Positions 699-18,169 of a stretch of 24,975 nucleotides of DNA are shown piece after piece. This DNA comes from Chrysochromulina tobinii. Its lineage: Eukaryota > Haptophyta > Prymnesiales > Chrysochromulinaceae. Below the pieces are notes generated by a model. That model made no database searches, was not told the DNA's origin, and saw only the letters and a program-made list of their open reading frames with translations. Position 1 is the stretch's first letter, and each line of letters starts with the position of its first letter. The position numbers were made by a program, and so were the translations under genes. The stretch is from positions 1-24,975 of the forward strand of contig JWZX01002260.1 of NCBI GenBank assembly GCA_001275005.1. Reading direction: 5' to 3'.

Positions 699-3600
699 CA
701 GAGCGGTTCCACAGGCACGGGTAGCCACCCGCCGCGCGTGCCGCGCTGCCGTTGGCAGCGGCGATACGGTCCTCGGCCGCCGCATGCTCTTCGTCCTCGT
801 CCTCCTCCGCGCCGCCGGGTGTGCCCATCTCGGCGCCGCGCGGCGTGGCCTTCTCGGAGCCGCCGCCCTCCTCCTCCTCGTCTTCCCCCTTCTTGGCCTT
901 CTTCTTCGAGCCCTTGGTCACGCCGGCGGGACTGCTCATCACAGCGCCCCCTCCCCCCTCCGAGCGGGCGGGCGAAGGGGGCAGCGAGGGCGGCACCGGG
1001 CTCGCGGGCGGCGCTGGCGAGGGCGGCACCGATAAGGGCGGCTGCCCGGGCGGCGGAAGAGCCACCTCCGCCATGTCGACATCCTCATCGACGTCCACGC
1101 TGCCACCGCCACGCGCCGCCGCCGCCGCAAGCTCCGCACTCAAAGTCGGCGGCTCGACCACCGCCCCGTCGGTCTGCCAGCCGAGCACGAGGCCAACGCC
1201 ACCGCCCGCGGACGCATCGAGTTGCAATGGCGGAGGGGCGGAGGCGCACAAGTGGGAGGTGGTGCCCTCCTGCCACGAGAACACCATCCCGCGCCCCTCA
1301 CTCTCCGCCTCGTTGAGCAGCAGCGGGGGCGGCGGGGGGGCGCCCAGCACGGCGCCCAGCCGCCCCGCGCCAGCGCCGTCGTGCATGGGTGCAGGCAGCG
1401 CGAGCGGAGGGCGAACCGAGCTTGGCACGGCGCTCGGTACGTTGCGTGAGTCGTTGTCGGCGAGCTCAGCGGCGGCGTCCGCGTCGAGCGGGTGCGTGAA
1501 CGAGAGGTGTGAACAGTACGAGCACTGGATCACATCGAGCCCGGGCACGACGAGGATCGAGAGGATGCGAGAGCAGCCCGGGCACTCGGCGGTGCACCAG
1601 AGGCGCTGCTCCGGCTGGATCTCGGCCTGATGAGGGAGGCAATCCGTGGTCATCAGAGGGGCAATCAGAGGGGCAATCAGCGGGGCAATCAGCGGGGCAA
1701 TCAGCGGGGCAATCAGCGGGGCAATCAGAGGCTGCAAAGGGCGCATTCAGACGCAATCATGAGTGGCTCTCACCTGGACCGCGGGCGTGTGGCGCACGAC
1801 GACCGCCTCGCCCATGATGGCCACTGCGGCCTCGTACACGAGCTCCTCGTACCTGTGGGGAAGAGGAGGGCGCCGTGGTGAGCACGTGCATGCCTGTGGC
1901 CTCGTACACGAGCTCCTCGTACCCTTTCTTGGCCGAGATCCCCGCGAGCCGCAGCTCATTCTCCATCACGGGCACGATGTCGATGGCACTCGTACTGCTC
2001 TGCCGGACCTCCTCCTCCTCGTCCTCCTCCTCGTCCTCGAGCTCATGCGCCGCGAAGCCGCCCTTGAGCTTCGCCTCCGCCTTGGCACGCGCCTTCGCAC
2101 GCTCCTCTTGTAACCACTTGGGCTCCTGTTTCGTCACAGGGCGCCACATCTCGACGAGCCCCGCCGCGTTGCCGTCACGCGAGCCGCGATGGACCACCTC
2201 CCACATGTTGCCATCGACGCCCCTGCGCTCCGTGCCCACAGTATACGCATTGGGCTTCTCCCGCGGCGCGCCCTCTGGTTGGATCTCCGTGCCCGCCTTG
2301 CGCCCCTTTTTGACGTTCGCCTGCTCCTCGATGACAGAGCGCAGCGTGCCGTTGACGAAGAGCAACTCGGGCGGCGGGCGCTCCCTCCACTCTCCGTCCA
2401 GGAAATCCTTGCCAGCCACCCAATTGTACGCGGGCCGAAGGTCATGAAGGTCAGCTTCATGCTCAGCCTCAAAGTTGACCTCGCGCACGAGCCACGTCAC
2501 GCCGCCGCTCGCGCCGCCATCGGCAGCTGCGCTACCCGCCGCACCGCCGGCCACGCCGCCCTCATTCCCCACAAAGGAGACGCGACGCTTCTTCTTCTCG
2601 ATGCGCACAAGCTCGACCTCCCACCAGCCGCCGTCGTACCGGTAATCGGCCGCCGCGCCGGGCATCAGCTTCGCCGCCCACTCGGCGCGCGCGCCCGACT
2701 CGGCGCCAGGCACGGGTGGGCGCGGGCGCAGGTACTTGATCGACTCCGCAGTCTCGTACCGTACCTGTGGGGAAGAGGGGGGCGCCGTGGTGAGCACTGG
2801 CATGCAGCGGGCGCAGGTCTTGGATCGGCTTGACTTGACTTGGATCGGCTTGGCATCAGGGCAATCAAGGGCAATCAAGTCTCAAAGCGTACCTTGGAGC
2901 CCTCGGCATCAGAGGCGATCAGGTCATCAGTGGTCATCAGTGGTCATCAGCGTACCTTGGAGGCCTTGGGATCCCTCTTCGTCTTGGGCAATCAGGTCAT
3001 CAGTGGTCATCAGTGGTCATCAGTGGTCATCAGCGTACCTTGGAGGCCTTGGGATCCCTCTTCGTCTTGGGCGCCGTGTACTTCTTCTCATCGCGCTCGC
3101 GTAGAGCCTTGGGCTTCAGCGGCAGCTCCTCCGTGTCATCCTCGCCCTCGTGCAGCTCAAAATAGCGAACGATCGCCTTCGAATCGAACTCGTGCCCGAC
3201 GACCTCGCCTTCAAAGACGGACCCTTGCAGGCTGCCATCCGTCTGCTCCACCTCGACATGCATCCCCACTGGCCACGCGAGCTTGACCTTCTCAAAGTGA
3301 GCCTCGCGCTCGAGCATCCGCTTCGACTTGACCTTCGGCTGCCAGTGGCCCGCCCATCGTCCGTTCTTGTGCAGCCAGCCTGGGCGCAGCGCGGCGAGCT
3401 GCACTCCAAACGTCGCGTGCACGTCCTTCGGGTGTGCCGAGACGAAGCGCACCTGTGGGGGTGGGGCTCCGTGGTGAGCACTTGCATGCAATGGCATGAC
3501 CCTCGGGTGTGCCGTGACGAAGCGCACAAGGTAATCTGCGGACTGGAGCGCCATCAGAGGTCATCAGAGGCCATCAGAGGTTATCAAAGGTCATCAAAGA

Positions 3601-6600
3601 CCATCGAAGGTCATCGAAGGTCATCAGAGGTCATCAGAGGTCATCAAAGCGCACATGGTAATCTGCGGACTGGAGCGCCGCCTTGCGCGCCGCGGCCGCG
3701 CTCGGCTCCTCAGCCTCGTCCATTTCGTCAAAATCGACGAGCGACTCCAGATCTGCCTCCAGATCTGCCTCGCGGAAGTTGCGAAGCCCCTTGGCGGCGC
3801 GCGCGGTCGGATCGGAGAATTGGATGACGAACCAGCCGCCCGGCTTGAGGTCCACGATGTCGCCCTGCAGCTTGAAGCAATCGGAGTCCTCGCGGCTCAC
3901 GTAGACCTGATGGCCCGGCGCCAAGTCCTTGCGCCCCCCTTGCACGGTGCCCGACGCGTCGAGCAGGCCGCTCGAGACGGCGCTCTCAGGGCGCAGTGCC
4001 TCGCGGATCCACACGACACGAACCTGTGGGGAGCATCGCGTCGCGGTGAGCACATGCATGCCGCGGGCGCAGTGCAAGGGCAATCACGCGTCATCGCGCA
4101 CCTGGTACCAGCCGCCGCGGTACTGGAGCTCGAGGGGGCAAGAGCCATCGATGGCGCCGTCACGTGACGCGACGCTTCCGAAATCCTCGGGCGTGGGTGG
4201 CGCGGGCGGGCGCAGCTCGGTGAACGGCACCCACGCACGCAGGAGCACGCCGCCGTCCTGGGTGTGCAACTCATACTGCTCGGCGCTCAAGACGGCGCGC
4301 GCGCGCGCGGCTATCTGGGCGTCGTCTTCTTCGGCGAGATCGCCCGCCACGACGCGCATGCCCGCACGCTGGCGCAGCGCCTTGTCAGCTTCGTCAACTG
4401 CCATCTTTGGGAGGCCTTCCACACGCTCGAAAACGACCAACGCCTCCTCCTTGCCGAAGAGCAACGCCACCCCCCGGTACCATGAGTTCGGCAGGTGCGC
4501 ACGCACCGCCGCTGCGCTCGCGGACTCGGCGGGAGCGAGGGGCGCCTCGAGCGCCATCCCGGGCGTGAAGCCCCGCTTCTCCGCCTCGCGAGCATACTTA
4601 TCGCGAGCGCCCTCGAGGGTGCCCTCCTCGAAGCTCTTCCACTTGGCGCGCTCCTCGGCCTGCGAGGTCCGCATGCAATCAGCGGCAATCAGGAGGTCAT
4701 CAGGAGGTCATCAGGAGGTCATCAGGAGGTCATCAGGAGGTCATCAGGAGGTCATCAGACGCACCTGCTCGAGCTTCTTGCGCTTGCGAGCCTCCTCTCG
4801 CTCCTTCTCCTCTTCGAATTTCGCGCGCTTCTTAGCCTCCTTCTCATCGTCCTTCCCCTTACGCTTCGCGTCGGCTTCCTCGAGCTTCGCCAGCCGCTTC
4901 GCATCGACGAGCTCCTGTGGGGAAACGTGGGGCGCAATCAGCCGCCATCAGTCGGTAACGGCCGTCATCAGCCGTCATCAGTCGGTATCGGCCGCCATCA
5001 GCCGTCATCAGTCGCACCATCATCAGAGGTGCAATTAGTGGGCTCCTCAGCGGGATCATCAGCCGCAATTAGCCCACCTTCTTCTTGGCTGATTGGCGCT
5101 TGAGTTCGCTCAGTAGGCGGCGCTCTTCATGACCACGCAACTCCGCATACAGGGCCACCGCAGCGAGCGAGCGGGCGACCGACCTGATGAAGGAGGCAAT
5201 CAAGAGGTGTCGTCAGAGGTCATCAGAGGCACTCAGCGGTCCTCATCAGAGGTCATCAGAGGTCATCAGAGGTCATCAGAGGTCATCAGAGGCACTCAGC
5301 GGTCCTCATCAGAGCTCATCAGGCGGCTCCTCACCATTCGAGCTGTTTGGAGCCCCGATGGCGCCATTGCCAGAGCGCGCACTGGCGCATGTCCGCGGCG
5401 GAGACCACATGTGCATTCCCCACAGGGTGCGTGAGGACGGCGTAACGTGCGTTGGGCTCGCCGGGCTTCACGCTCTGCGACCAGCACAGCTCCTTCTCGT
5501 CGGCGCCGTGTTGGGCGCCTCCAGTGCGCGACCAGCAACGTGTCTTCCCATCGGGCGCGAGGACCACTTGCCAAGGCACAATCCACTTGCCACTCGCCTC
5601 ATCGAGACCATTCGAAACGGTTCCCACAGGGACGTCCGAGACGGGGTGCGCGGCCTCTCCGGTGGAGAGGAGTACCGGTGGGTACACCCCAGCCTCGGCC
5701 ACGTACACCAACGTCCCTTGCCACCAGCCATCCTCGAAAGCAAACTCGAGGGGCACTCCCGCAGCCAGGGTCGACAGAAACGAGGCCGGCGTGGGCGGCG
5801 GTAGCGGGCGCAGCCGTCGCAGTGGCACCTGCGTGTCCACAAGCTTGTCGGCGCCCTCCTCGTCGCTCTCCGAGAACGCATGGTAACGTACGGCAGCCCG
5901 CTGCTCCGCCTCGTGCACCTGATGAGGGAGGCACTCAGAGGCGCTCAGAGGCGCTCAGAGCCACTCAGAGCCACTCAGAGCCGATCAGAGCCGATCAGAG
6001 GCGCTCAGAGGCGCTCAGAGCCACTCAGAGCCACTCAGAGCCGATCAGAGCCGATCAGAGGCGCTCAGAGGCGCTCAGAGCCAGTCAGAGCCAGTCAGAG
6101 CCGCTCAGAGCCACTCAGAACCACTCAGAGCCACTCAGAGGCGCTCAGAGCCGATCAGAGCCGCTCAGAGCCACTCAGAGCCGATCAGAGCCCACTCAGA
6201 GCCGATCATAGGCAATCACGGCAGCCCTCGTGCACCTCGAGCACATCGGCGCCGTAGTAAGCGCCCTCGAAGCCATCGTCCTCCTGCAGCACCTCGACCG
6301 TCTGTTTCGGGGCAAAGGCCGCGGCGGGCGTTGCCTCATCAGACGCGTAGCTGCCTCCAATCACCCGCCGTACGTGGCCCGAGTGCGCCACGTACGAAGC
6401 TGACGAAGCTGACGAAGCTGACGAAGCTGCCGCGGGCTTGGACGAGTCCGCCGCCGCCGCCGAGCGCTCGGCTGACGAAGCTGACGAAGTCGAGTCCGCC
6501 CCGCTCGCGCGCCGCCCCTTGGCAGAGCCCGCCTTGGCGTTCGGCTCGGCGGACAAAGTTGACGAAGCCGAGGCCAGCCCGGCGGGCCCAGCGGCGCCCT

Positions 6601-8711
6601 TGGCGTCCGCGGGCGGCGCGGCGGGCACAAGAGTCAGGTTAGCCAGCCATTGGGCCGTCGGTGCACGGTCCAGATCGGTCACATCGGCGCCCGGAGGCTC
6701 GAGCTCCCACCTGTCGCCCTCGAGACGCACGTTGAGCAGTATCGAGGAGGGCACGATTCCCTTCTTCCACATGGGCTTGATGTACCCTTGGCTATGCGCC
6801 TTGCCGTCGCTCATACGCGTGGTCAGGTGCTGCAGCACGCCGCCCTTGACGCGCCAGAACCAATCACCGGTACGGAGCACCCACGCTGGGCGCACACGGC
6901 TCGCCGTCACGTCCAACACATCCGAAGAGTACAGGAGCTTGACGCGCAGCTTGGTGTCACTGGCGCCGTCAGCGGCGGCGGCCGCCGCAAATGGCTCCTC
7001 GCCTGCCGCCTCCGCCGCCTCCGCGGCGGCCTGCCTCTCGGCCTCCCGCTTCCTCCTCTGCTTGGCCTCCTTCTTGGACTCCGTGGCCTCGATGGGCGGA
7101 GGCACCACGATGCACTCCCACCAGCCCTCATGGACCAAGACCTGCAGCAGGTCGCCCTCATCGAAGTGCGAAGGAGGCCACACCCCCTCGATCATGCCAG
7201 GCGGGCGTGGGCGCAGACACTTGAGTGGCTGCCACTCGGTGAGCGGCGTCCCATCTTCATTCGTGAGGGTGTCATACTGGATCTTCACCGTGCCCGCCTC
7301 TCCGCCCTCCTTGCCGCCCGCAAAGGCGGCGATCTGCCCCGCGTACCATGAGCCCACGTAGGCCTCGTCCACGGGGCCCACTTCCACTCGGTCGCCTTTG
7401 GACCACCTTCGTGCCTGCGGGTTCTCGTCTACGGGCAGCGGCGCGAGCGGCGGCCTGAAGTTCGCGCGCCCATCGCCCGCAAACGACCAGCTCCCGTCTT
7501 GCTGCGTCAGCTGCACCGTCAGCAGGTTCGGGTCGTCCGCCGCCTTGGCCGCCACCTTTTCGATGGCGGCTGGCGGCTCGCCATTCTCACCAGTTGCCGC
7601 CTCGTCGCCGCGCAGCGTGAGCTGCGCATCGAGGCGCCACGAGGCGGCCGAGAGGGCCGCCGAAGAGGCCGCGCCCGTGTCCGATCGACGGAAGGTGAGC
7701 AGCACGGCCGAGCGTGGACCGGAGCGGCGCTGGGTCATGGACCAGGCGTTCGTCTCACTCGCGAGGCTCCATAGCGGGCGGAGCGCGCTCGCGGGCAGCG
7801 TGTACTTGGCAAACGTATCGAGCAACAGCACCGAGGCCTCCTCCTTGTCGTCCTCCGCCAGCGGCAGCACCAGCTCTTGAAAGGCAGCCTCGACCCAACC
7901 AGACCCGTTCGGCTGGTCAGACAGCACGGCGCTGATCACGTCGTAAGGCAGCAGCTTGCGCAGCCAGTCGCTTGGCGGATCGGGTGGCACGGCACGCAGA
8001 CCGTCGAGCGCCACCCACGTCTTCTCCGCCTCCTTCTCGATGAGCTCCGCTCCGGGCTCGCTCACGTACCTGTGGGGCGTGAGGACGCCGTGGTGAGCAC
8101 ACACTTGCATGCCTCCAGTACCGGAGACGAAACTGGCTCACGTACCCGATGCGCGCTTGGCCCAACTTCTCACGAGTGCCCAACGTGAGGATCACTGCCT
8201 CATACGTGACGCCGTCGACGACATGCTCGACGCGCGAGCCCTTGGCGAGCTCCTCAGCGAGCGGAAACGATGGCGCCTTGGTGGTCGCGCTCTTCGCGCC
8301 GCTGCCCAAGCCCTTGGGCTTCTTCGATCCAGAGTCCTTGCCACCACCGCCACTGGCGCTGTCAGGCGATGTCGCTAGGGCCAGAGACTTGGTGACGGGC
8401 GCGCTGCCTTTCTTAGACTTGCTCGAGGGGCCCTGCGAGCGCAAAAGGGCGCAGAGCACGCGCGCTCAGCGCCGTCGGTTGAATCGCACGGGCTCTATTG
8501 GCAGCCCAGCCAGCATGCTCTGGTGAGTTTGCGGGCGGAAGGTGCCACAGAGCCCAGGGAAGGCAGGCTGGGCACGTGCGGCGCGGCGCACCTGCGAAGT
8601 AGGTGTCCCAGTGGCCTGCGGAGCGGCCGGTGCGGCCGCAGCAGTAGCGGCCGCCGCAGAGTCAGCCTCACTGGAGGCCTTGCTGCGTGAGGCCCTGTCT
8701 GTCCGTGGCAT
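1..8711 (-). CDS. Large multi-Agenet/Tudor-like protein with zinc ribbon and two AP2-like domains (3' end outside window)
   Basis: I place 12 exons: 8711-8490, 8432-8146, 8069-6236, 5918-5335, 5183-5078, 4914-4765, 4659-4102, 4023-3655, 3452-3039, 2764-1923, 1852-1774, 1626-<1. All junctions are GT-AG and keep one frame for 1,815 codons before the last exon. Agenet-like units (GDRVEV...SWYAGQI...LRPRPP; GDLLQV...GWWECIV) lie near residues 390-565 and recur in exons 4, 7-10. Exon 6 is a Lys/Glu coiled coil. The last exon has a C-x2-C...C-x2-C ribbon (CPGC, CSYC), an acidic Ser/Pro-rich linker, two AP2-like stretches (SG-VRGVYK; SGFKGVHR with a later YHVGHHDDPESCARTMA) and a poly-Gly run at the window edge. 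Agenet domains usually read chromatin marks and AP2 domains bind DNA, so a nuclear regulator is inferred. The ATG at 8711 is the first in frame. A one-base frame break sits at about 697-699. It could be annotated elsewhere as several genes. Confidence 0.72.
496..1626 (-). other. Last exon, first part: LSD1-type zinc ribbon and acidic linker, before the frame break
   Basis: After the acceptor ending at 1627 the frame reads AEIQPEQRLWCTAECPGC, then a second C-x2-C pair (CSYC) about 20 residues on. This matches the spacing of LSD1-like zinc ribbons. A Pro/Ser/Ala-rich linker and a Glu/Asp run follow. The same frame continues as low-quality sequence to a stop at 496, but real protein signal stops at GYPCLWNRSG (about 700) and moves to the next frame. 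Confidence 0.6.
1627..1773 (-). repeat. Intron 11 of the Agenet gene: 12-bp minisatellite with TCATCAG acceptor cassette
   Basis: The donor is CAG|GTGAGA at 1773 and the acceptor ends CCTCCCTCATCAG at 1627. Between them the plus strand shows about six 12-bp units of the type GGGGCAATCAGC (1660-1731). The acceptor cassette (plus-strand CTGATGAGGGAGGCAAT) is one of ten related copies in the window. Confidence 0.75.
1853..1922 (-). mobile_element. Introner (core type A), intron 10 of the Agenet gene
   Basis: Core 1853-1893 reads, on the gene strand, GCATGCACGTGCTCACC, a C-rich tract, then CCCCACAG. A 26-bp exon segment is present identically at 1828-1853 and 1898-1923, so the intron is one exon copy plus one core. 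The exon copy supplies the donor GTACGA, and the same hexamer begins the next exon. This is the cleanest example of the family here. Confidence 0.85.
2765..3038 (-). mobile_element. Composite introner, intron 9 of the Agenet gene
   Basis: The acceptor side (2765-2805) is a type A core. The donor side holds GGTCATCAGT minisatellite units. A 39-bp exon-end segment occurs identically at 2951-2989 and 3034-3072, with a shorter decayed copy near 2888-2900. The intron therefore records at least two rounds of insertion or duplication. Splicing AAG|GTACGC to CCCACAG|GTACGG keeps frame and gives KASK-VRYETAES. Confidence 0.8.
3453..3654 (-). mobile_element. Composite introner (type A core plus 10-bp minisatellite), intron 8 of the Agenet gene
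   Basis: A 32-bp exon segment is repeated with one mismatch at 3521-3552 and 3648-3679 around a GGTCATCAGA array (3552-3647). Another 25-bp segment is repeated with one mismatch at 3428-3452 and 3503-3527 around a core (3453-3489). Removing everything from GTGCGC at 3654 to CCCACAG at 3453 leaves SADYH-VRFVSAHP in frame. Two introners thus stacked at one site. Confidence 0.85.
4024..4101 (-). mobile_element. Introner (core type A), intron 7 of the Agenet gene
   Basis: The core at 4024-4061 has GCATGC, a TGCTCACC box and an acceptor TCCCCACAG. The flanking exon copy is short and decayed (about 11 bp, GCACTGCGCCC). Donor GTGCGC follows GGTACCAG; the join YQ-VRVVWIREAL is in frame. Confidence 0.75.
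4660..4764 (-). repeat. Intron 6 of the Agenet gene: 11-bp minisatellite
   Basis: Six to seven units of plus-strand GGAGGTCATCA lie at about 4691-4758 beside the donor GTGCGT. The acceptor, GCGGACCTCGCAG, is not of the TCATCAG or CCCCACAG type, so this may be an older intron in which a repeat grew. Confidence 0.7.
4915..5077 (-). repeat. Intron 5 of the Agenet gene: degenerate CATCAG repeats
   Basis: The acceptor is CGTTTCCCCACAG and the donor AAG|GTGGGC. The inside holds about ten degenerate units around CCGTCATCAG and CGGTAACGG. It has the CCCCACAG end of the type A core but lacks the GCATGC part, so it looks like a hybrid or an eroded copy. Confidence 0.65.
5184..5334 (-). repeat. Intron 4 of the Agenet gene: 10-bp minisatellite with TCATCAG cassette
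   Basis: The array of GGTCATCAGA units is interrupted by two copies of a longer unit containing GGCACTCAGCGGTCCTCATC (about 5227 and 5291). The acceptor is CCTCCTTCATCAG. The split Trp codon TG|G is rebuilt exactly across the junction (QLEW-SVARSL), which supports the borders. Confidence 0.75.
5919..6235 (-). repeat. Intron 3 of the Agenet gene: two-level minisatellite (10 bp inside 60 bp)
   Basis: About 28 decamers of the form GCGCTCAGAG, CCACTCAGAG and CCGATCAGAG fill 5931-6220. They are ordered in pairs, and the 60-bp blocks 5941-6000 and 6001-6060 are identical, with a third, diverged block after them. Donor and downstream exon both start GTGCACGAGG, a flanking host duplication. The acceptor is the TCATCAG cassette. 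The splice rebuilds an Agenet strand (VLE-VHEAEQRAAVRY). Confidence 0.85.
6397..6436 (-). repeat. 9-bp coding repeat (Ser-Ser-Ala) in the Agenet gene
   Basis: Four plus-strand units of GACGAAGCT encode SSASSASSAS on the gene strand, with two more partial copies near 6475 and 6555. It is an in-frame low-complexity linker, unlike the non-coding minisatellites of the introns. Confidence 0.8.
8070..8145 (-). mobile_element. Introner (core type A), intron 2 of the Agenet gene
   Basis: Core 8070-8112 contains GCATGC, TGCTCACCACGGCGTCC and a CGCCCCACAG acceptor. Donor and following exon both start GTACGTGAGC. A decayed exon copy of about 13 bp is visible on the two sides. The junction restores a split Gly codon (ARIG-YVSEPG). 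Confidence 0.8.
8433..8489 (-). other. Intron 1 of the Agenet gene, 57 nt, ordinary type
   Basis: Donor GAGCCC|GTGCGA and acceptor TTTTGCGCTCGCAG. It holds an in-frame stop, so the break is needed to join GLPIEP-GPSSKSK. No core, repeat or flanking duplication is seen, making it a contrast to the introner-derived introns. Confidence 0.6.
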
Positions 8712-9091
8712 ACCAACACGTGCTACCAAAGTTGTAGACCTGCAGGCGGTGCGCGGTCGGGGGTATCAGCCTGGGCGGTTTCAGCTGCTGATCGCAGGCC
8801 ACAGGCAAGTGGCAAATGAACCTTGTTCGGCGTCGGCTCGAAGCCCAGTCGGACTCCTCTCGAGCGGGAGAAGAAAGCGCAAAGCGAAGCTCTTTGCACG
8901 TGCGTCCCGTGCGTCAAAGACGATGTTCGCGCTCTTCAATGATTAGCTGGCTTTTCTCCCATCTCTCGCCCCGAGCCTCTCAACAGCTTCTTTGTTTTGT
9001 CTATCCTAACCGCCTATGTTTGCCTTTTTTTGTTGCCAAACTTGCACCAGACCCATGCGAGCTTCTCTCAGCTGCATCCGCCTCGACAATC
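8712..9091. promoter_or_regulatory. Divergent intergenic region between the Agenet gene and the 107-residue gene
   Basis: These 380 bases separate two divergent start codons and must hold both promoters and 5' UTRs. The right part (about 8985-9045) is T-rich compared with its surroundings, as expected of transcribed leader or promoter DNA here. I see no clear TATA box. A frame stays open upstream of 9092 back to 8816 but has poor coding character. Confidence 0.35.
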
Positions 9092-9415
9092 ATGGAATGG
9101 GTCGGTCATGCGGCCGGTATGAGCGCAGGTATGAAGCGGCAGGGAGTATTCAGGGAGGCCACAGGGACGAGGCAGCAGTTCGTTGCGCCGCCGCCCTTTG
9201 GCGTCGACCCGATCACCCCGCAGGCGACGCAGGCCCGCTTCTCGATCTCGTCAGCCACCATCGGTGGCAACAAGCAGCAGCGCGTCATCGACTACCAGAT
9301 CCGCGAGGAGCCGCCGCGCGTGGGCGCTCCGGTCGCCAACACCCTCGTCGCCGCCGGTCGGCGCCCCAAAATCACCGTGGGCGCGCACATAGAACGAGCG
9401 GTGCATAACCGATAA
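9092..9415 (+). CDS. Small protein of 107 residues, family not recognised
   Basis: The start ATGG at 9092 has a good context, and the frame ends at TAA 9413-9415 without introns. The protein starts MEWVGHAAGMSAGMKRQGVF and is polar, with a Pro-rich stretch (FVAPPPFGVDPITPQ), a central basic/Gln segment (GGNKQQRVIDYQ) and a basic end. I see no signal peptide, membrane segment or Cys motif. Codon third positions are G/C-rich from 9092 onwards, while the upstream extension of the frame is not, which decides the start. Its nearest neighbours are nuclear or cytoskeleton-like proteins, but this gives no firm function. Confidence 0.6.
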   Translation: MEWVGHAAGMSAGMKRQGVFREATGTRQQFVAPPPFGVDPITPQATQARFSISSATIGGNKQQRVIDYQIREEPPRVGAPVANTLVAAGRRPKITVGAHIERAVHNR

Positions 9416-9885
9416 CGCGTGACTGTAGCATTCGAATCTAGTGATTAATAGAAAGCCCTCTTTGATGTTCTACGCCCTGTGACCGGCTGACGAAATCGAA
9501 TACCGCCGCGTGGTGGTGAGAAGCGCGGCACATGCACATGAGATGCGACTGCGGCCCGTTGCCACAGTAACGCCCTTCGCAAGAGACCAGCGAGCAGCGG
9601 CTCTTGCTCTCACTGTCTCACACGCCCAGTGTCTCCTCCCCTCGTCGCCGCGTGACCGCGACACGGCCGTGCCTCTGCCCTGTCCCGCCACGCGCAACTT
9701 GCCCAGGTTGATAGTGCCCTCCGTCCCTACACGTCCCCTCCGGCCCCGGCGTGCCCCGCTCTCGCGGCTGCCCCGCTCAGGTGCGATTCCGGTTTAGGGA
9801 GGGGCTGGGGTGTGAAGGGCTGGAGTGTGAATGAGTCTCGCCGCTCAGTCCCAGCGCCTGCGCCGCCCAACGCTCGGTGCTCAGC
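9416..9885. other. Convergent intergenic region, 3' UTRs
   Basis: These 470 bases lie between the stop codons of two convergent genes. No coding frame with consistent third-position bias is visible on either strand, and I see no repeat or hairpin of note. A GATTAATAGAAAG stretch shortly after the stop at 9415 could lie near a poly(A) site, which I cannot confirm. Confidence 0.3.
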
Positions 9886-11409
9886 TCAGCGCCAGTCGGG
9901 CTTCGATGGCGGCGGCGGAGGCATCTGCTGCCGGGCTTGCTTGACCGACTTGGCGATGCGCGTAATGTACGCGGGAGCCTCGTGGGTCTGCGGCTGAAAG
10001 GTGCACTCGGCGAGCTCCTGCGCCAAGGAGCGATCAAGGGAGATCAAGGGGAGATCGATGAACAATCAACGGCCATCAGTAATCCAGGTCAATCATGGGC
10101 GAGCTCAAGGGAGATCGCACCTGGCTCTCCTGCGCCTCGCGCACGACCGCAGTCAGCTGCTCCTTGAGCCGCATGTGCTGTCGGACCCTCGCCAGGTAGG
10201 ATTGTGGCTCCGAATGGACCTTGAGCCGACTCTGCACGCCGGGCACTTCGTTGATGTGCGGCTTGAATGTGAGCCCTTCCTGGCCCTTCTCTTCGGCCAC
10301 GGCGCGTTTGGTCTCATACAGGCGCACTCGGCGCTGCGCGTCGCCCATCGAGCGCTCCTCGCAGGTTCGCCCTTTGCGTGCGTGGGCGCTGAGCGTGATC
10401 TGCGGGTGGAAGGTGCACTGCTCGGCCTGATCGGAGGGCAGAAGCGTGGAACCGTCGCCTCCTCCCAGGGACGAGAGGGTCTGCTGCTTGCGCCGCTCTG
10501 CCTGCTCCGCCACCTGATGAGGGAGGCAATGAATGGCGTCATCAGAGGTCATCAGAGGTCATCAGAGGTCATCAGAGGTCATCAGAGGTCATCAGAGGTC
10601 ATCAGAGGTCATCAGGTCATCAAGAGGCCAGCATGGTTCTCCGCCTGCTCCGCTACCCGCTCAAGAAAGCTCTTCGAAGCGTCGTGACGAGCGTCTGTTG
10701 TGGAACCCTGCTGACGCCTCATCTCGGCACCCTCCGAGCCGAGATTGCCAAGATCTCGCTCGGAGCCCGCTATCGGTGGCGGTGGCGGCAGGCCGGCCCC
10801 GTCGCTCGCGCGCCGCACGCCGCGCAGCAACTCATCGCGCTCCTTGGCGATCGTCTCCGCGCGCTGCTGCTCGGCCATGCGCTTGCGGTGTAAGTGCGCC
10901 GCTTGTCGCTCAAGGAAGCTGGCGAAGACCTCATCGGCTTTTTCGCTCGCGCCGCCGGGCGACGATGGCGGCCCCTTCGGAGCCACCCCGCTGCCGCGCA
11001 AGGGGGCCGAACCAAAGCTTGCGGAGCGAGTCAAGCCGCGCCCGGGCGGCGCCTGAGAGGGTGAGGGTGGAGGCTGCCTAGAGAGTCGCAGGTGCGCCGG
11101 GTCCTCTAGGTAGTCCGCGACAGCATTGGAGAGGGAGCGCGGCATACGATTGACAGCTGGCGAGAAGGTGCACTGCTCGAGGCCGGTGGGCAGCGGCAGC
11201 GGGCGCGAGGGCGAGGGGGCTCGATAGCGCGAGGCGACATTGGTCGCCACGTTCGTGCGCAGCGGTTTATTGGTCTCGGGCTGGAACGTGCACTGCGACT
11301 CCTCCTGTTGACGTTTCTCCTCGCGCTTGGCCTCGAGCGCCTCGTGCTGCGCGATGCGCGCCTGCGGCTGGTACAGCCGCGAGATCACGTGGCCGCGAGC
11401 GCTCTGGCT

Positions 11410-11442
<33 letters not shown>

Positions 11443-12098
11443 CTCGCGCGCGCTGCTCGCCCCGTCCCGAGCGCCGCCAAAAGAGGCCCGACGCGCAGAC
11501 GGCGACGGCGCCACCTTGGGCGCAAACGTGCACTCGGCCATCTCGCGCTCCTCGAGCTTGCGCCGCCGATTCTCGTTCTCGACATCCACGTGCTTCTTCC
11601 AGTCCTTCGTGTAGTTGAAGAAGGCCTCGGGATCTTCCACCTTGCTCTTGCTGTGCGCGCCACTTCGGCTGTTCGTGCGCGGGTGGAAGGTGCAATCCTC
11701 CGCCTCGCGCACCAGCAGCTCCTGCTGAAGCCGCATGGCTCGCAGCTGCTGCATCTCCGCCGCGCGATTCAGCTGCGCCATCGACGAGGTCACGCTCCCC
11801 TCGCCGTCGTGCCCGGCATCCTGCTCGTACGCATGCTCATCCGCATGCTCATACGCTGGCATCGCGCCCGTCGGAAGAGCCGGGGCCGGCACGGGTGCGG
11901 CTTCCAGAGCGCGGCGCTTCTCATCGATCACTTTCTGCGAGACGAAAGCGAGCAGGTCAATTCAGGGACGGAAAGACGCTCACGGCTACCTGCCGGGGGA
12001 TGTTTAGGCAGCGCCCGGCTGCGCTTTCGATCAGCGAAGCTGCGGCGCACCTGAATAAGAGCCAGCGCGGCAGCTTGGCCTCCGACTGCCTGCGCCAT
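9886..12098 (-). CDS. Coiled-coil protein with seven CTFxP motifs (four exons, 616 residues)
   Basis: Exons are 12098-12051, 11934-10657, 10513-10121 and 10017-9886; all three introns are phase 0 and the whole frame is open. The short first exon (MAQAVGGQAAALALIQ) is inferred from the donor at 12050 and the acceptor at 11935. Motifs read DCTFHPRTN (about residue 97), ECTFAPKV, QCTFQPETN, QCTFSPAVN, QCTFHPQIT, LTFKPHIN and ECTFQPQTH, separated by Glu/Arg-rich helices and Ser/Pro/Gly linkers with one poly-Gly run. Such 'CTF-x-P' repeats are common in large protist cytoskeletal or flagellar proteins, so a microtubule or basal-body role is a guess. The repeat spacing is irregular. The start is the weakest part of the model. 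Confidence 0.75.
10018..10120 (-). repeat. Intron 3 of the CTFxP gene
   Basis: Donor CAG|GTGCGA, acceptor TTGGCGCAG. It contains TGATCTCCCT-type units near both ends and a duplicated GAGCTCGCC beside the acceptor exon. The last exon begins ELAECTFQP, giving the seventh motif, which supports the junction. Confidence 0.65.
10514..10656 (-). repeat. Intron 2 of the CTFxP gene: 10-bp minisatellite with TCATCAG cassette
   Basis: About eight near-identical units of plus-strand AGGTCATCAG lie at 10540-10620. The host segment at the donor (GTAGCGGAGCAGGCGGAG) and at the start of the next exon (GTGGCGGAGCAGGCAGAG) are copies with two mismatches. The join is SFLER-VAEQAERRKQ. Confidence 0.8.
11935..12050 (-). 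other. Intron 1 of the CTFxP gene (ordinary type)
   Basis: Donor CAG|GTGCGC and acceptor CGTCTCGCAG, 116 nt, without minisatellite or introner core. It is proposed because the next exon opens right after an acceptor with no ATG near, and an ATG at 12098 gives a phase-matched 16-residue start. Confidence 0.5.
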
Positions 12099-12301
12099 AG
12101 ACGCTCAAGCGGTGCCAACGACCTCGGCGCTTGAGTGCGGCGCCTCAATGGACTCGGGCTTTTGAGACGGTGCGAAGCCATCGAACTCGACCGTCAAAAC
12201 GTTTCACATTCACAGTCACAGACCTTCAAACGCCCTCTCGCCGACGATTTCCCATCGATCGACTTCCACTAATCCACAGCCAAGGCTTAGCCTGCATCGA
12301 T
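12099..12301. promoter_or_regulatory. Short tandem intergenic region between RNF10-like gene end and CTFxP gene start
   Basis: These 203 bases carry the 3' UTR of the RNF10-like gene and the promoter/leader of the downstream minus-strand gene. The part around 12195-12290 is less GC-rich. No TATA box or clear poly(A) signal is evident. Confidence 0.3.
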
Positions 12302-14583
12302 TCAGCTGCGAGCGCGCTGGCCGGTGTTGGAGATGAGCGAGATGCCCTTCTTCCGGCTGCGCGCGCTCGCCATGACGCTCGCCGCTCCTCCGGCCGCATC
12401 GCCCGTCGGGCTCGGCGCCGTCGTGGGCGTCGGGATCGGCGCGTGCGCCGCCGCCGCCGCCCACGACGACGCCAACGGCGGCGGCGGCGCCTCGTCGGCA
12501 TCTCCCCCGTCGAGATCGGAAGACCGGGCAGGCGACGCTGCCCTCGCGCAAGCCGCCGCCGCCGCCGCCGCCGCTGCCGCCGCCGCTGCTGCCCGCCGAG
12601 TGCGGTTGACCGGCCGTCGCGACGGGCGCTGTGGCGGGCGCTGTGGCGGCGCGCTGCGGTGTGAGGAGGTTCGCGGGCGAAGAAGCCCTGAAGGAAGGCG
12701 AGCACTCTGGGGTCTTGTTGCTGTTGCGCAAGGACTGAGCGCTCGAGGCGCCGTGCTGAGCGCTCGAGGCGCCGCCGCCGCTGCTCACCGACGCGTGTGC
12801 GGTGCCAGCGACGGGCCAGGGGGAGGGCCCGTGCAAGGGGGAGGCGCCGGGGGAGGCGCCGGGGGAGGCAGCCTGCGCGAGCGTCGGCCCCGAAGCACCA
12901 AAGCCCTCGTGCACCATGCGCGCGAACGAGGGCACTTGGCTGCGCTCCTCCTGCTGCGCCTGCCACTGTGCTTCCCATTCGGAGGTGATGGAGATCTCGA
13001 TGGCCTCGCGGGCGAGCTGCTGCCTCCGGCGGAGTGCCTCGATCTGTGAATGTGAATACCGGGTGCACACGGGAGCCGAGAGCGCGCTGTGGTGAGCACT
13101 TGCATGCAAGGCAGGCCATCAGTGGCAATCAACGGCAATGAACGTACCTTGTCCATGCTGAGCAGCTCCAGCTCACTTGCATGCAAGGCAGGCCATCAGA
13201 GGCAATCAACGGCAATGAACGTACCTTGTCCATGCTGAGCAGCTCCAGCTCGATGGCCATCGTCGACTTACCAGCCTTGGACGCGAGCTGCTGTGTCTCA
13301 CGCTCGCGCTCTCTCTGCTCGCGTTGCTGCCGCGCTGCCTCCTTGGCGGCCTTGCGCCGGCGCTCGGCACGGCGCGCGATCTGCTCGGCTGCGCCCTCGA
13401 GAGTGGCGGGAGAGACGAGTTTCGTCAGATCGAGCTCGGCGATCACCACCGAGCAGCCCTGATGAGGGAGGCAATCAGACGTCCTCTGTGATCAACAAGA
13501 GGTTGCTCGGTCGTGCAGCCCTGATGAGGGAGGCAATCAGAGGCCATCAGAGGCAATCAGCTCGACGTGCTCGGTCACCTGCGGAAGGTGGGAGAGCCAA
13601 CGGAAGCGTAATCAGAGGCAATCAGAGGCAATTAGAGGCAATCAGCTCGGTCGTGCTCGGTCACCTGCGGAAGGTGGGAGAGCCAACGGAAGCGCTTGCG
13701 CACACTCTCGTCGGAGAGCTTCTGCGGCGTGAGCTCGACGATCGGAGCTCGCACCTGATGAGGGAGGCCATCAGGCGTCCTCGGTGATCATCAAGAGGCC
13801 ATCCAGAGGCCATCAGGGGCAGAGGCGAGATGCAGGGGTGACCAAGGGAGATCAAGGGAGATCAAGGGAGATGCGCACGAGCTCAGGGCAGCTCGACACG
13901 CTCCCAAACTCGTCCAAGAGCAATCAAGGGAGATCAAGGGAGATGCGCACGAGCTCAGGGCAGCTCGACACGCTCCCAAACTCGTCCAAGAGCATCCGCG
14001 TGCACATCATGTCCGCAAAGATCAGCTGACCGTCCGCCGCCTGCAGCAGCAGCTGCCCTTCCTCCCTGGCTCCGCCGCCGTCCCGAGCGCCGTCCAGGGC
14101 GCCGTCCCCGGGCGCCGTCCCGAGCGCCGTCCCGAGCGCCGCCCTCCTCCTTCGAGCGCTCTCTCGTCGGCGCCGACGCCGGCTTCCCCACCATATTCAC
14201 ATTCACAGACGCCGGCTTCCCCTCCATATTCACATTCACAGACGCCGGCTTCCCCTCCATATTCACATTCACAGACGCCGGCTTCCCTTCCACACTCCCT
14301 ATGGCTATCTTGCTTGGGGTGGCGAGGCTCCACTTTCGGTGGAGCGCCTTGACGTGCGCTCGTGCCTGATGAGGGAGGCAATCAGAGCTCATGAGGGAGG
14401 CAATCAGAGGTCCTCAGAGGTCCTCAGCGCCTTGACGTGCTCTCGTACCTGATGAGGGAGGCAATCAGAGGTCATCAGCGCCTTGACGTGCTCTCGTACC
14501 TGGCGCAGAAATCCGAGCGTCTCCTCGTCTTCGGCGCTGTACACGACAGTGGGCTCCGGCGGCGCGGCTGCAGCTGCTGCCGC

Positions 14584-14614
<31 letters not shown>

Positions 14615-16719
14615 GCCGGTGCTGCTGCTGCTGTGCTCGCCGTCCTTCCCGCCTCTGCCGCCGAACGTTGACGAAGCATCTCCGCGAGATTCCGCGGCGC
14701 CGGCTTGGGCGCCTGGGTGGCGCTCGACACGGCGCGAGCGCCGGGTCCTTCGGCGGCGGCGGCAGCGGCGGCGACCGCCTGCGAGAGAGCGCCGCGAGCG
14801 CCGTGGTGAGCACATGCATGCAAGGCAGGTCGTCATTGGTCATCAGTGGTCATCAGTGGTCATCAGTGGTCATCAGTGGTCATCAGTGGTCAGCAGTGGT
14901 CATCAGTGGTCATCAGTGGCCACACCTGCGCGAGAGCCGCGTCGCGCAGCTCCTTCTCCGCCGCGTCGAGCTGCGACAGCTGCGACGCCACAAGACTGTC
15001 AAACGAGCGCACCTGTGGGGAGGAGAGGGCGCCGTGGTGAGCACTTGCATGCAGCTGCGACGCCACCAGACTGTCAAACGAGCGCACCTCGGTGAAGCCA
15101 AGCAGGCGAGGGCCGGGCTCCACAGCGTCTTCCACAGTGGAGGCGACCTCTTCGAGCCTAAAAAGGAAGCCCGACGGACCGCCTTTTTCGTGCAGGCTCA
15201 GACGCCGAAAGTCGACTGGCGGGCCGCCCTCCTTGACCGGCTCGACGCGCGCGAGGCACACGGCGCGCAGCTCACCTGTGGTGGAACGGGGCGCCGTGGT
15301 GAGCACTCGCATGCAGGGGCCAGGGTCGTCTCAGACTAAAGGCGAGCAGCTCACCCTGGAGGACAGGAGCCAGGCAGAGCGGGCAGGTGCACGCCTTGCC
15401 CGACGCATCGCACGCGGAGTGGTAGCGCAGCGCGCACACGAGGCAGAGGACGTGCCCACACCTGTGGGAGTTGGGCGCCGTCGTGAGCACTTGCATGCGC
15501 ACACGAGGCAGAGGACGTGCCCACACCCGTGAGGATGCGGCGCGAGTGTGGGGGAGGTGGGCGCCGTTGTGAGCACGTGCATGCGCGCACCCGTGCAGAT
15601 GCGGCGCGACCGGCGGCTCCGCGAGGCAGATCGGGCAGCGTATCGCCTCCGACGACGCCAAGCGCACCTGTGAGGGAGATCAGCGCCGTGGTGAGCACTT
15701 GCATGCGAGGCCAAACGGGCAGCGTATCGCCGCCGACGAGGACGCCTAAGCGCGCGCATTGCGCGCACGACGTCCCAGTCGACCGGCACGTCCGAAAGGC
15801 ATCAGAGGTCATCAGAGGCACTCAGAGGTCATCAGGAGGTCATCAGAGGTCATCAGAAGTCATCAGAGGCCATTCACACCGCGCGCACGACGTCCCAGTC
15901 GACCGGCACGTCCGGGGAGGCGCGATGGATGCGATAATCACCGCCGGCGGGCACGAGCAGCTGCAGCTTCGAGGCGCGGTAGCGCGTCCTCTCCTCCACC
16001 CGACTACGCGCCGTCGCGGGCACCGCGGGCGCGATGCGGGCGCGCCTTGGCGGCGCCTCCGTCGATAAGAGCTCGGCACGACCGCTCAGCGGCTGGAAGT
16101 TGAGCAGATGTGACGCGTCGCGCTGCCCGCGTCGCGCTGCCCTCGTCGCACCGTGGCTGCCGCCCTCGGACACGGACCATTCATAGCCGCAGTCCGTCTT
16201 GACCCAACGTCCTCGGACCTCGGCGCCGGCGGGCCCGCCGCTGCCGCCACCGCCCGCTGGCAACGCCGCCGCGTGCGGCTGCTGCGAGCTGCGCCCGGCA
16301 TGGCGCTGCCCGACGCCACACATAGCGCACATGTCGGCACTGCTCTGGTTGCTGTACGTGCACACCGCGCACGCCCAGTGCGCATGGATGGGACCGTCGC
16401 CATCGCTGCGATGGCCACCCTTGCCGTTGCCGCCGCCGCCTTTGCTGTTGCGAACTCCGCCTTTGCCGCCCTTGCCGTTGCCACCACTGCGAGGCGTGTT
16501 GCACATGGAGCACGTGGTCGCACCGGGTTCCTCGTTTATGAATGTGCAACCCGTGCAGGCCCATGAGCCAACGGCGCCGCTTCCACGGCCAGCATCACCG
16601 CTGGCGCGCGAGTGCCCGCCGCCACGACCGCCGCGCTTGCCACGGCTCCCCTGCGATGGTGATGCCGTTTCGTGCAGCGGTGCAGGTTCAAGAGCGGGAG
16701 GGGCCGCCTCGGAGATCAT
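12302..16719 (-). CDS. RNF10-like RING E3 ubiquitin ligase with two RanBP2-type zinc fingers (ten exons)
   Basis: Exons: 16719-15889, 15667-15591, 15461-15355, 15275-15088, 15012-14926, 14778-14500, 14365-13951, 13754-13665, 13458-13225, 13043-12302, about 1,015 residues. RanBP2-type fingers lie at residues 53-77 and 115-136 (WACTGCTF, WACAVCTY). SHLLNF precedes a Pro/Arg-rich part; VDWDV leads into a C3HC4 RING with C288, C291, C304, H306, C309, C312, C329, C332. Further on, a QAADGQLIF segment, RFRWLSHLP, a Glu/Arg coiled coil and SFARMV follow the order found in animal RNF10, which ubiquitinates 40S ribosomal proteins during translation stress. Extra G residues near 14105-14108 and 12541-12543 break the frame in exons 7 and 10; both exon lengths exceed a multiple of three by exactly one. 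An in-frame ATG at 16833 is an alternative start, but the DNA between is AT-rich and leader-like. Confidence 0.82.
13044..13224 (-). mobile_element. Intron 9 of the RNF10-like gene: introner core with 77-bp tandem duplication of the exon border
   Basis: Positions 13098-13174 and 13175-13251 are adjacent 77-bp copies with one mismatch. Each holds the exon's last bases (SMDK), the donor GTACGT and the intron's first part including GCATGC. The acceptor GTATTCACATTCACAG at 13044 departs from the CCCCACAG norm. Splicing from the upstream donor gives SMDK-IEALRRRQQ in frame. Confidence 0.8.
13459..13664 (-). mobile_element. Intron 8 of the RNF10-like gene: stacked TCATCAG introners
   Basis: Two TCATCAG cassettes (13459 and 13521) sit in one intron. 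A 43-bp exon end is repeated identically at 13566-13608 and 13652-13694, with AATCAGAGGC units between. Splicing the outermost donor (GTGACC) to the last acceptor joins SHLPQ-GCSVVIAELDL, which fits the RNF10 family. Confidence 0.8.
13755..13950 (-). mobile_element. Intron 7 of the RNF10-like gene: 72-bp perfect tandem duplication of the exon border
   Basis: Positions 13851-13922 and 13923-13994 are adjacent 72-bp copies that look identical. Each contains 44 bp of exon end, the donor GTGCGC and 28 bp of intron with GGGAGATCAA units. The acceptor is a TCATCAG cassette at 13755. The upstream donor gives SCPEL-VRAPIVEL in frame. Confidence 0.82.
14366..14499 (-). mobile_element. Intron 6 of the RNF10-like gene: triple copy of exon start plus TCATCAG cassettes
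   Basis: The segment containing GCGCCTTGACGTG and the following splice region occurs three times (about 14344, 14428 and 14479). Each is next to or near a TCATCAG-type cassette (14366, 14388 with an altered CTCATGAG end, 14449). The outermost donor GTACGA to the acceptor at 14366 gives FLRQ-ARAHVKAL. Confidence 0.78.
14779..14925 (-). mobile_element. Intron 5 of the RNF10-like gene: type A core plus TGGTCATCAG minisatellite
   Basis: About nine TGGTCATCAG units at 14834-14920 lie next to the donor GTGTGG; one unit reads CAGCAG. The core with GCATGC and TGCTCACC lies at 14779-14821, with acceptor CTCTCTCGCAG. I saw no long exon duplication here. Confidence 0.75.
15013..15087 (-). mobile_element. 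Introner (core type A) with 38-bp flanking duplication, intron 4 of the RNF10-like gene
   Basis: Host segments 14977-15014 and 15052-15089 match at 37 of 38 positions and flank the core 15013-15052. The copy supplies the donor GTGCGC, also the first hexamer of the next exon. Splicing keeps GFTE-VRSFDSLVASQL in frame. Confidence 0.87.
15276..15354 (-). mobile_element. Introner (core type A), intron 3 of the RNF10-like gene
   Basis: Core 15276-15314 with GCATGC, TGCTCACCACGGCGCC and TTCCACCACAG. Host copies of about 14 bp at 15263-15276 and 15342-15355 differ at one position. Donor and next exon both start GTGAGC. A split Gly codon is restored (VLQG-ELRAVC). Confidence 0.82.
15462..15590 (-). 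mobile_element. Double introner with one dead acceptor, intron 2 of the RNF10-like gene
   Basis: Two type A cores lie in tandem: 15546-15584 and 15462-15498. A 31-bp host segment is identical at 15432-15462 and 15497-15527; another of about 23 bp is similar at 15524-15546 and 15588-15610. The first core ends CCCCCACACT instead of CCCCACAG, so only the second offers an acceptor. The join HLHG-CGHVLC restores the RING Cys-His pair. Confidence 0.85.
15668..15888 (-). mobile_element. Composite introner, intron 1 of the RNF10-like gene
   Basis: From the donor GTGCGC at 15888 it holds an AGGTCATCAG-type minisatellite (about 15799-15870), a copy of the previous exon's end (around 15764-15793, the DVPVDWDV codons), a diverged copy of the next exon's start (15706-15755) and a type A core (15668-15706). 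Both neighbouring exon edges have thus been duplicated into the intron. The splice joins VDWDV-VRLASSEAIRCPIC. Confidence 0.82.
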
Positions 16720-16870: not shown

Positions 16871-17364
16871 ATGCGGACCTGGAATGTACTCGCCGTGTGC
16901 CTGCTCAACACGCTGCTCATCGCGGCCGATACGCAGCCGGAACTCCCGGGCGGCAGTGCGGTTCGGCGCGCGGCCGAGCGCTACGCGGTGCCCGAGGCCG
17001 TCGACGCCGAGCGCATCGCCGAGGTCGACCGACTCGTGGCCGCCGCAGCAGCGGCCGTAGAGGAGCTGCCCTTTGGTCATGGCGCTCGTGACGAGCTACG
17101 GGCGCTACGCGGCAAACTGCTGAGCTTACGCGACGCTGCAAGCGTCACCGCGCCGCGCGAGTGGGACGCGATGCTTTCCGCCCTCCTAGAGTCGAAGCAC
17201 TCTGGTGTCGATGACCTTACGGGGCTGCTCGAGGCGCACGCGGCCGTGCCACCGGGCGAGATGGATGCCCTCGCGCAGGCCCGGCCGAGGGCAGCGAAGT
17301 TGCCGACGGGCAGCCTGGACAGCGCCGAGTGCGACGGCAACGAGGCAGCCGGCGGGCGCCGCTT

Positions 17365-17439
<75 letters not shown>

Positions 17440-17558
17440 GCCGCCGCCGCTTGAGGCAGCTGCACGCCGGCAGACGAAGCTGCCGCCGCCCGTGCCGGCG
17501 CAGGAGCGCAGGGCGTCGCGCGCCGAGGTGGAGCCACCTCCGCTCCCCAGCACGAGCC

Positions 17559-17627
<69 letters not shown>

Positions 17628-18169
17628 TTGGGGCGATGATGGGCAGCAGTGGCAGCTCGTGGCTCGGCGGGGCGCTTTGGGCCTGGCGACGCTGGCTACT
17701 CGACCGACCATCGCCGTGGGAGCGTGACTGTGATTGCTGCTTCCCCGAGTGCCCGCCGCAGTACAACTGCCTCTTGCAGGGCGACGGGCTCTACCTCGCG
17801 TGCCGCGGCGAGTCGCTGGGCAGCATTGTAGACTATTACTGGACTGAGCATCCATGCACGTCGGCGGCGTCCGTGCTCGCGCTCGTGCTCATGGCGGGTG
17901 CGTGGCTCACACAGCAAGCGCTCGTGCTTCGGGCGCACCTACGGGTGGGCTCGCCTGCTGAGGCCAAGGGAGGCGGCCGAGGCGCACACGCTGCAAGGGA
18001 GGCAGCAGTGCAAGACGAGGACGAGGACGAGGACGACGACGACGAGGACGAGGACGAGGCAGCAGTGCAAGACGAGGAGGAGGAGGACGAGGACGAAGAG
18101 AAAGAAGACGAGGAGGAGGACAAGGCGGCGGAGGCACATGCGCGCAAGCCTAAGGCGGCCACGAATTGA
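16871..18169 (+). CDS. Secretory single-pass membrane protein with two polyQ tracts and acidic tail
   Basis: This single-exon gene of 432 codons starts with a signal peptide (MRTWNVLAVCLLNTLLIAAD). A helical, Ala/Glu/Leu-rich part of about 140 residues follows, then 24 Gln encoded by pure CAG (17366-17437), poly-Pro, and a second pure tract of 22 Gln (17561-17626). Next come a Trp-rich segment and a Cys cluster (CDCCFPECPP, CLL, LACRG, HPC) that could form disulfides. One hydrophobic helix (ASVLALVLMAGAWL) near residue 345 is followed by a basic stretch and an Asp/Glu tail of about 50 residues. A type I topology with acidic cytosolic tail is inferred. I do not recognise the family. Confidence 0.75.
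17366..17437 (+). repeat. Pure CAG repeat, 24 units
   Basis: Uninterrupted CAG triplets encode polyglutamine, bounded by TTG (Leu) and CCG (Pro) codons. No CAA interruption is present. Confidence 0.95.
17561..17626 (+). repeat. Pure CAG repeat, 22 units
   Basis: A second uninterrupted CAG tract in the same reading frame, 123 bases after the first, bounded by CGG (Arg) and CTT (Leu). Confidence 0.95.

Follow-up and report, generated by a model that had tools for sequence, protein, structure and literature searches.

A candidate high-copy introner system set between duplicated host-exon sequences

Intron gain is an old question in which few cases have been caught in the act. The window analysed here, a stretch of 24,975 nucleotides that makes up contig C1145 of a 53.15-Mb genome in 2,253 contigs, has a GC content of 61–72% per kb and carries a short core that recurs along it, in several places between two copies of the same host-exon sequence. 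The locus raises the question of whether these inserts are introns, which of their splice sites they bring with them, and how they came to be pasted in.

Cores and exon duplications in the window

A sequence-only reading had listed twelve cores in the window, and all 12 are present at the ends it gave, every one on the minus strand. The four flanking duplications it named are real, with lengths of 29, 34, 35 and 28 bp when anchored at the acceptor, and a fifth of 14 bp accompanies the core ending at 15314. Clear acceptor-anchored duplications were found in 5 of the 12 copies, while those of the other seven were partial, broken by indels or absent. We call the two host-exon copies X1 (upstream) and X2 (downstream). 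In copy 1 (1824–1922), X1 lies at 1894–1922, the core at 1871–1893, the tract and acceptor at 1853–1870 and X2 at 1824–1852; its 29-bp duplication starts with GTACGA at CCACAG, and the predicted intron covers 1853–1922 (70 nt). The same layout is seen in copy 3 (3419–3527; X1 3494–3527, core 3467–3489, X2 3419–3452, 34 bp; predicted intron 3453–3527, 75 nt), copy 8 (14978–15087; X1 15053–15087, core 15030–15052, X2 14978–15012, 35 bp; predicted intron 15013–15087, 75 nt), copy 9 (15262–15354; X1 15341–15354, core 15292–15314, X2 15262–15275, 14 bp; predicted intron 15276–15354, 79 nt) and copy 10 (15434–15526; X1 15499–15526, core 15476–15498, X2 15434–15461, 28 bp; predicted intron 15462–15526, 65 nt).

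The remaining copies are less regular. Copies 2 and 4 (cores 2783–2805 and 4039–4061) have inner duplications only, that of copy 4 being 11 bp long. In copy 5 (8054–8145, core end 8112) the first ~10 bp of X are duplicated (GTACGTGAGC) and the remainder, judged by eye, has diverged; this core stands outside the later counts because it is too diverged. The core of copy 6 (13085–13107, in the region 13085–13251), which is related to the donor-carrying form described below, sits inside a 77-bp tandem duplication at 13097–13251 and has no duplication at its acceptor; nor has copy 7 (core 14799–14821, region 14799–14919), which has 10-bp tandem repeats upstream. Copy 11 (15522–15610, core end 15584) is flanked by a duplication (15585–15610 and 15522–15546, by eye) without a standard acceptor, and the 24-bp duplication of copy 12 (15623–15730, core 15684–15706; duplicated at 15707–15730 and 15623–15646) does not start at the acceptor. 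A different 3' end, family B, also occurs on the minus strand of the window: one predicted intron spans 14414–14502, with X1 at 14465–14502 and X2 at 14414–14451 around the 3' end at 14449–14468, and further B-like 3' ends lie at 5919–5938, 10514–10533, 13459–13478, 13521–13540, 13755–13774 and 14366–14385.

An unbiased scan of the window for direct repeats, in which numbers were small, found 14 repeats on the minus strand, 4 of them with the AG/GY geometry, and 17 on the plus strand, none with it; no AG/GY direct repeats were found in ten reverse transcriptase (RT) loci. Pfam RVT_1 matched ORFs at L040, L042, L043 and L045 and gave no match in the L048 ORF scanned; by their look, the RVT_1 loci L039, L040, L042, L043, L045 and L048 are Gypsy-, LINE- and DIRS-like. 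An Rfam scan of the window at the gathering threshold returned no match, leaving the core without a known structured-RNA identity. Tandem repeats of ~10–11 bp, whose gene-strand sequence includes CTGAT, resembling a branch point, fill 2917–3072, 3552–3649, 4688–4758, 5209–5322, 10538–10627, 14828–14919, 15800–15873 and other places. At 21322–21436, beside plus-strand ORFs, the plus strand has TGATTGCCAC as the tandem unit; repeat orientation may therefore follow the gene. The plus-strand ORF at 16871–18169 holds long CAG-type (poly-Gln) and acidic repeats, at 17365–17627 and 18014–18125.

Genome-wide anatomy and predicted splicing

The sequence-only reading had proposed a genome-wide search with the core and a measurement of the flanking duplications. 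At up to 3 mismatches, GCATGCAAGTGCTCACCACGGCG occurs at 2,333 places (1,126 + 1,207) and its reversed control at none. Such matches define family A, of which 141 copies had enough flank for analysis; this sample is non-random, consisting mostly of the perfect-core places first in contig order, with their neighbours and the window copies added. Bases of the 23-mer core are 93–100% conserved in these copies and the preceding base only up to 46%. Similar introns are thus predicted at many unrelated host positions, as expected of introners in the broad sense, and we consider it probable that the feature is a high-copy introner system whose inserts lie between host-exon copies, are probably spliced out and may have been pasted in from templates.

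On the gene strand, the order is an exon ending in G, an X starting GT(A/G), filler in some copies, GCATGCAAGTGCTCACCACGGCGC, a C/T tract, CCCCACAG, a second X starting GT(A/G), and exon. The insert, 40–65 nt long, comprises the conserved core with a branch-point-like CTCAC, followed by a pyrimidine tract that varies and in most copies ends in CACAG. A host-exon copy starts exactly after the AG acceptor in 92 of 141 copies, compared with 5 of 280 shuffled pairs (score ≥11; this null replaced a first one that tandem copies had inflated, maximum 43), and by the local test a duplication is absent in 22 of the 141. Among the 71 copies with a CACAG-type acceptor, almost all of which have a duplication starting exactly at the acceptor, X starts with GT in 62, GC in 7 and another dinucleotide in 2 (69/71 GT/GC).

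Measurements were made on a cleaned set of 60 copies (de-duplicated, score ≥11, GT/GC start, intron <130 nt). Here X is 14–48 bp long (median 29.5), a range whose lower limit partly reflects the score threshold and whose upper limit partly reflects the exclusion of repeated exons and of introns of ≥130 nt. X1 and X2 have a median identity of 95.6% and are identical in 17 of 60 copies; about half of the set have duplications more than 95% identical, and the part that was brought and the part that was recruited are visible. A hypermutation signature between the X copies was considered and rejected, the substitution spectrum being diffuse. The filler has a median length of 5.5 nt, the tract with acceptor measures 12–28 nt and the predicted intron 63–99 nt. 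Lengths of X and filler are negatively correlated (rho −0.68), partly by construction, since sequence beyond the last matching position of X is counted as filler. Twelve copies have X directly against the core. With two tandem copies counted, a G follows in the host sequence of 11, as would fit one or two bases having been shared at the junction (microhomology).

These duplications are, as the sequence-only reading had claimed, much longer than introner target site duplications (TSDs), for which the part of PMC9860276 consulted gives 3–9 bp in previously characterised families. Its statement that terminal inverted repeats are lacking also agrees with our search: no inverted repeat of ≥8 nt links the insert ends in four window copies, the only repeats of that length being two tract–host pairs in one copy and an overlapping palindrome at GCATGC in a second, with none in the other two. 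Neither hallmark of MITE-type elements was therefore found, that is, terminal inverted repeats (four window copies, ≥8 nt) or a fixed short TSD (60 copies). Part of the copies without tract or acceptor stand in tandem, with 3n spacing in 14 of 30 rows, in which arrays are counted repeatedly. Tract-less X-core-X arrays are seen at L019, L092, L072 and L127, with cores 48, 48, 60 and 75 bp apart, and might be translated in frame, the core being kept as protein.

From the reading frames we infer that the inserts and one X are spliced out as introns, restoring the exon. Of 71 family A copies whose donor is GT or GC, 30 allowed a call and 41 did not, and 25 of the 30 fit exact splicing; where the callable intron is not a multiple of three (n = 21), 19 fit splicing, none retention and 2 neither. 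For family B, 33 copies gave 16 not callable, 1 too short and 15 of 16 fitting splicing, the non-3n introns (n = 11) dividing into 10 for splicing, 0 for retention and 1 for neither. Intron lengths are not biased toward multiples of three (33 of 92 A copies). In a Pfam comparison of five genes picked by eye as conserved-looking, the spliced form scored higher in 5/5, clearly so in 3/5: SNF2 (95.1 bits spliced versus 40.5 retained), DSPc (92.0 versus 71.6) and GST_C_2 (38.3 versus not found), with little difference for asparaginase C (95.8 versus 90.5) and EEP (25.0 versus 23.3). A codon-based strand test, which is weak, called family A 34 sense, 13 antisense and 45 unclear (n = 92), and family B 15 sense, 12 antisense, 23 unclear and 1 short (n = 51).

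The asparaginase gene also allows a comparison with proteins from other samples. P0022 (70 sequences) and P0060 (9) end inside the family B intron as the DNA predicts, and the relatives P0001 (86% identity) and P0009 (79%) read straight across its site. The site may represent, for one family B intron, an empty site at the protein level, the source sequences being either DNA or RNA; P0009 lies on a 129-kb contig, which points to DNA rather than RNA in its case.

A mirror form, a second 3' end and the spread of inserts

Not every copy carries its acceptor. A donor-carrying form, GTACGTTGATTGCCACTGATGACCTGCCTTGCATGC, was found at 133 places at up to 3 mismatches (control 0), with the donor at the left end of the core and the acceptor absent. 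Duplications of the upstream exon ending exactly in AG accompany 16 of 31 donor-carrying copies, compared with 1 of 176 shuffled pairs (score ≥9); four of the 16 passing rows are the tandem pairs L140 and L022, and 15 of the 31 copies miss a score of 9. The duplications measure 30 bp at L150 and 35 bp at L153. In these copies the 5' end is anchored and the 3' end ragged, and by eye the right-hand fillers are shared across contigs by L022/L156/L142, L144/L085 and L139/L145. This arrangement suggests that a duplication could, at its outer edge, provide what either intron half lacks. Family B is, by its sequence, a putative second 3' end with a design as in family A: CTGATTGCCTCCCTCATCAGG occurs at 1,735 places genome-wide at up to 1 mismatch (control 0), with a duplication at the acceptor in 51 of 100 copies versus 9 of 178 shuffled pairs.

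The sequence-only reading was thus right in outline and incomplete. Its dispersed family with a branch-point-like sequence, tract and acceptor stands, and the second 3' end and the tandem tract-less copies had escaped it. Its view that the mobile part carries only a 3' splice site and recruits its donor from the host copy holds for acceptor-carrying copies and fails for donor-carrying ones, which recruit an acceptor. A core of about 40 bp as the fixed mobile part had to be given up, since the far end is ragged and sometimes inherited.

The history of the inserts was followed through five genome-wide searches with fillers or tails, of which two were informative, two returned the query copy alone and one gave short partial relatives. 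The filler of L065, on C256, has counterparts differing by two mismatches on C430 and C2231, and the near-identical ~60-nt insert has its own host duplication on each contig (21, 26 and 20 bp, respectively, by eye). The exon tail of L026 together with its core is found at two places in the genome, 2.35 kb apart on C88 and with an identical 21-nt tract; the tail is part of the host duplication at one place and foreign filler at the other. These cases suggest that inserts have a ragged far end, which a new copy can inherit from its parent. Among pairs with the same tract and different hosts, 1 of 18 (the C88 pair) shares upstream sequence, compared with 27 of 5,080 otherwise. Tracts are similar (distance ≤0.2) in 40 of 146 same-contig pairs versus 669 of 4,855 other-contig pairs (permutation 0/500; mean distance 8/500), although same-contig pairs may still hold related tandem copies that add to this similarity. 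By tract similarity, copying looks partly local.

Several single loci deserve mention. At L034 (C101) and L061 (C235) copy and flanks are nearly identical on both contigs, which may be alleles or strains. The L138 contig bears an HSP70 (dnaK-like) gene and AtpA and may be plastid, which would make the host an alga, or a contaminant. Among the rows listed in protein searches with asparaginase, an oxidoreductase and AtpA (at least 120, 23 and at least 120, respectively), none was a close named relative. L134 (4220–4554) is a short contig from a viral collection with phage-like ORFs, ending in A core and acceptor DNA. The idea that the core is viral was rejected, since this single viral-contig match has the core confined to its last 60 bases and is probably a chimera; the match would place the family in another sample.

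Possible origin and relation to known systems

In the mechanism we propose, new copies would be templated from existing introns, partly neighbouring ones, and the insert would be pasted in with a long staggered target duplication. An upstream X that opens with a donor-like GT or GC would allow splicing to the AG of the insert, with one X and the insert removed; among donor-carrying copies, about half of those examined would use the AG at the end of the duplicated upstream exon as acceptor. Insertions would afterwards be retained by selection if the outer edge of the duplication offered the missing splice site, or if they stayed in frame. Pasting may have occurred at a stalled fork or at offset nicks, through template switching coupled to repair, a step to which we give slightly less than an even chance. 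Template switching with staggered nicks, combined with selection for exact splicing, would account for the microhomology and the tandem arrays as well as for both forms and the local spread. It fits less well with a duplication start that is nearly always exactly at the acceptor, and offsets of 3n might also be expected to survive if selection alone were at work, which counts against the proposed mechanism. A bolder reading of the whole, tentative and a little short of evenly balanced, is a two-sided "half-intron" system: the core would spread as a 3' half, with branch point and acceptor, and as a 5' half, with donor and branch point, the outer edge of a long target duplication of variable length would supply the other site, and resident introns, often neighbours, would act as templates from which pieces of the parent exon are carried along, with no dedicated transposase.

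Target-primed reverse transcription, in which a LINE-type enzyme would act in trans on excised intron (or SINE-like) RNA, would instead yield a fixed CACAG 3' end and a truncated 5' end. Acceptor-carrying copies are indeed 3'-anchored with a variable 5' end, their duplications vary in length as LINE/SINE-type TSDs do, junction microhomology is present and the genome has 26 RVT_1 matches. This origin is nonetheless rather unlikely, because donor-carrying copies are reversed, so that a fixed 3' end with 5' truncation does not hold for all copies, because copying looks partly local and because the listed copies have no 3' tail.

An ordinary non-autonomous DNA transposon (a MITE-type introner) with an unusually long TSD would share with the families in the consulted part of PMC9860276 a dispersed distribution, short length and one carried plus one recruited splice site. 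The absence of inverted repeats of ≥8 nt between insert ends in four copies, the 14–48 bp range of the duplications, and ends that are ragged and inherited make it very improbable. Variable duplication length together with absent inverted repeats is unlike elements mobilized by DDE-type transposases and, for the tested copies, argues against such an enzyme. Scarcely any weight falls on plain tandem exon duplication (the AGGT model), in which the core would be an old intron piece caught inside: X-core-X-core-X arrays do occur (e.g., L003, L030, L068 and L079), but the acceptor comes from the insert rather than from duplicated exon in the 71 CACAG-type copies, and near-identical inserts have different host duplications on three contigs. 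That these are coding or minisatellite repeats and not introns is hardly credible; the 3n spacing of tract-less tandem copies (14/30 rows, with arrays counted repeatedly) would fit, whereas the frame test, the Pfam domain comparison and the lack of 3n bias in intron length (33/92) speak against it.

The half-intron reading may be set beside published systems. Family 1 of Symbiodinium microadriaticum, in the passages of PMC9860276 compared, likewise has many dispersed copies that carry a 3' splice site and take the donor from a duplicated target, but with a TSD of 4 bp and TIRs, whereas the duplications here are 14–48 bp, variable, and without TIRs in four copies. Those passages show short TSDs serving as the source of either splice site. 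Introner family 5 of Chrysochromulina sp. (PMC9860276) also lacks a TIR; its TSD is 4 bp, and a core in both polarities is not described in the passages compared. Neointrons of Daphnia pulex are attributed in the excerpt of PMC4202315 to staggered double-strand breaks with exon repeats of 4–12 bp. Their geometry, an exon repeat at the opposite end, is found here as well, with the differences that our repeats reach 14–48 bp and that inserts of this family number in the thousands. Among mechanisms reviewed in the available part of PMC3443670, tandem genomic duplication with AGGT similarly makes a splice site by exon duplication and leaves the coding sequence unchanged; in the present case the second splice site and the branch point come with an added module. 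The Micromonas introner elements (PMC3879977, in part) resemble this system as a massive recent invasion of a small alga by repeat introns, but reverse splicing was proposed there, as against half-introns and host duplication here. Repeats of 4–30 bp near 213 introns (PMC11782384, in part) and other introners (PMC7789003, in part) have also been described. In titles and abstract openings, a search that took in few subscription papers, we found no introner family with long variable host duplications.

The two mirror forms suggest that either intron half is enough if the target is duplicated. If the half-intron reading is true, mass intron gain would have introns themselves as its template and be driven by host repair. 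The search in PMC9860276, as described in the part consulted, demands similarity near both intron ends; here, similarity does not extend to near both splice boundaries (a detection rule rather than a definition), since the 5' part is the locus-specific X, and these introns would probably fail that pipeline for this reason. Such families would probably escape any search that needs both ends of an intron to be similar, and intron gain of this kind may therefore be undercounted.
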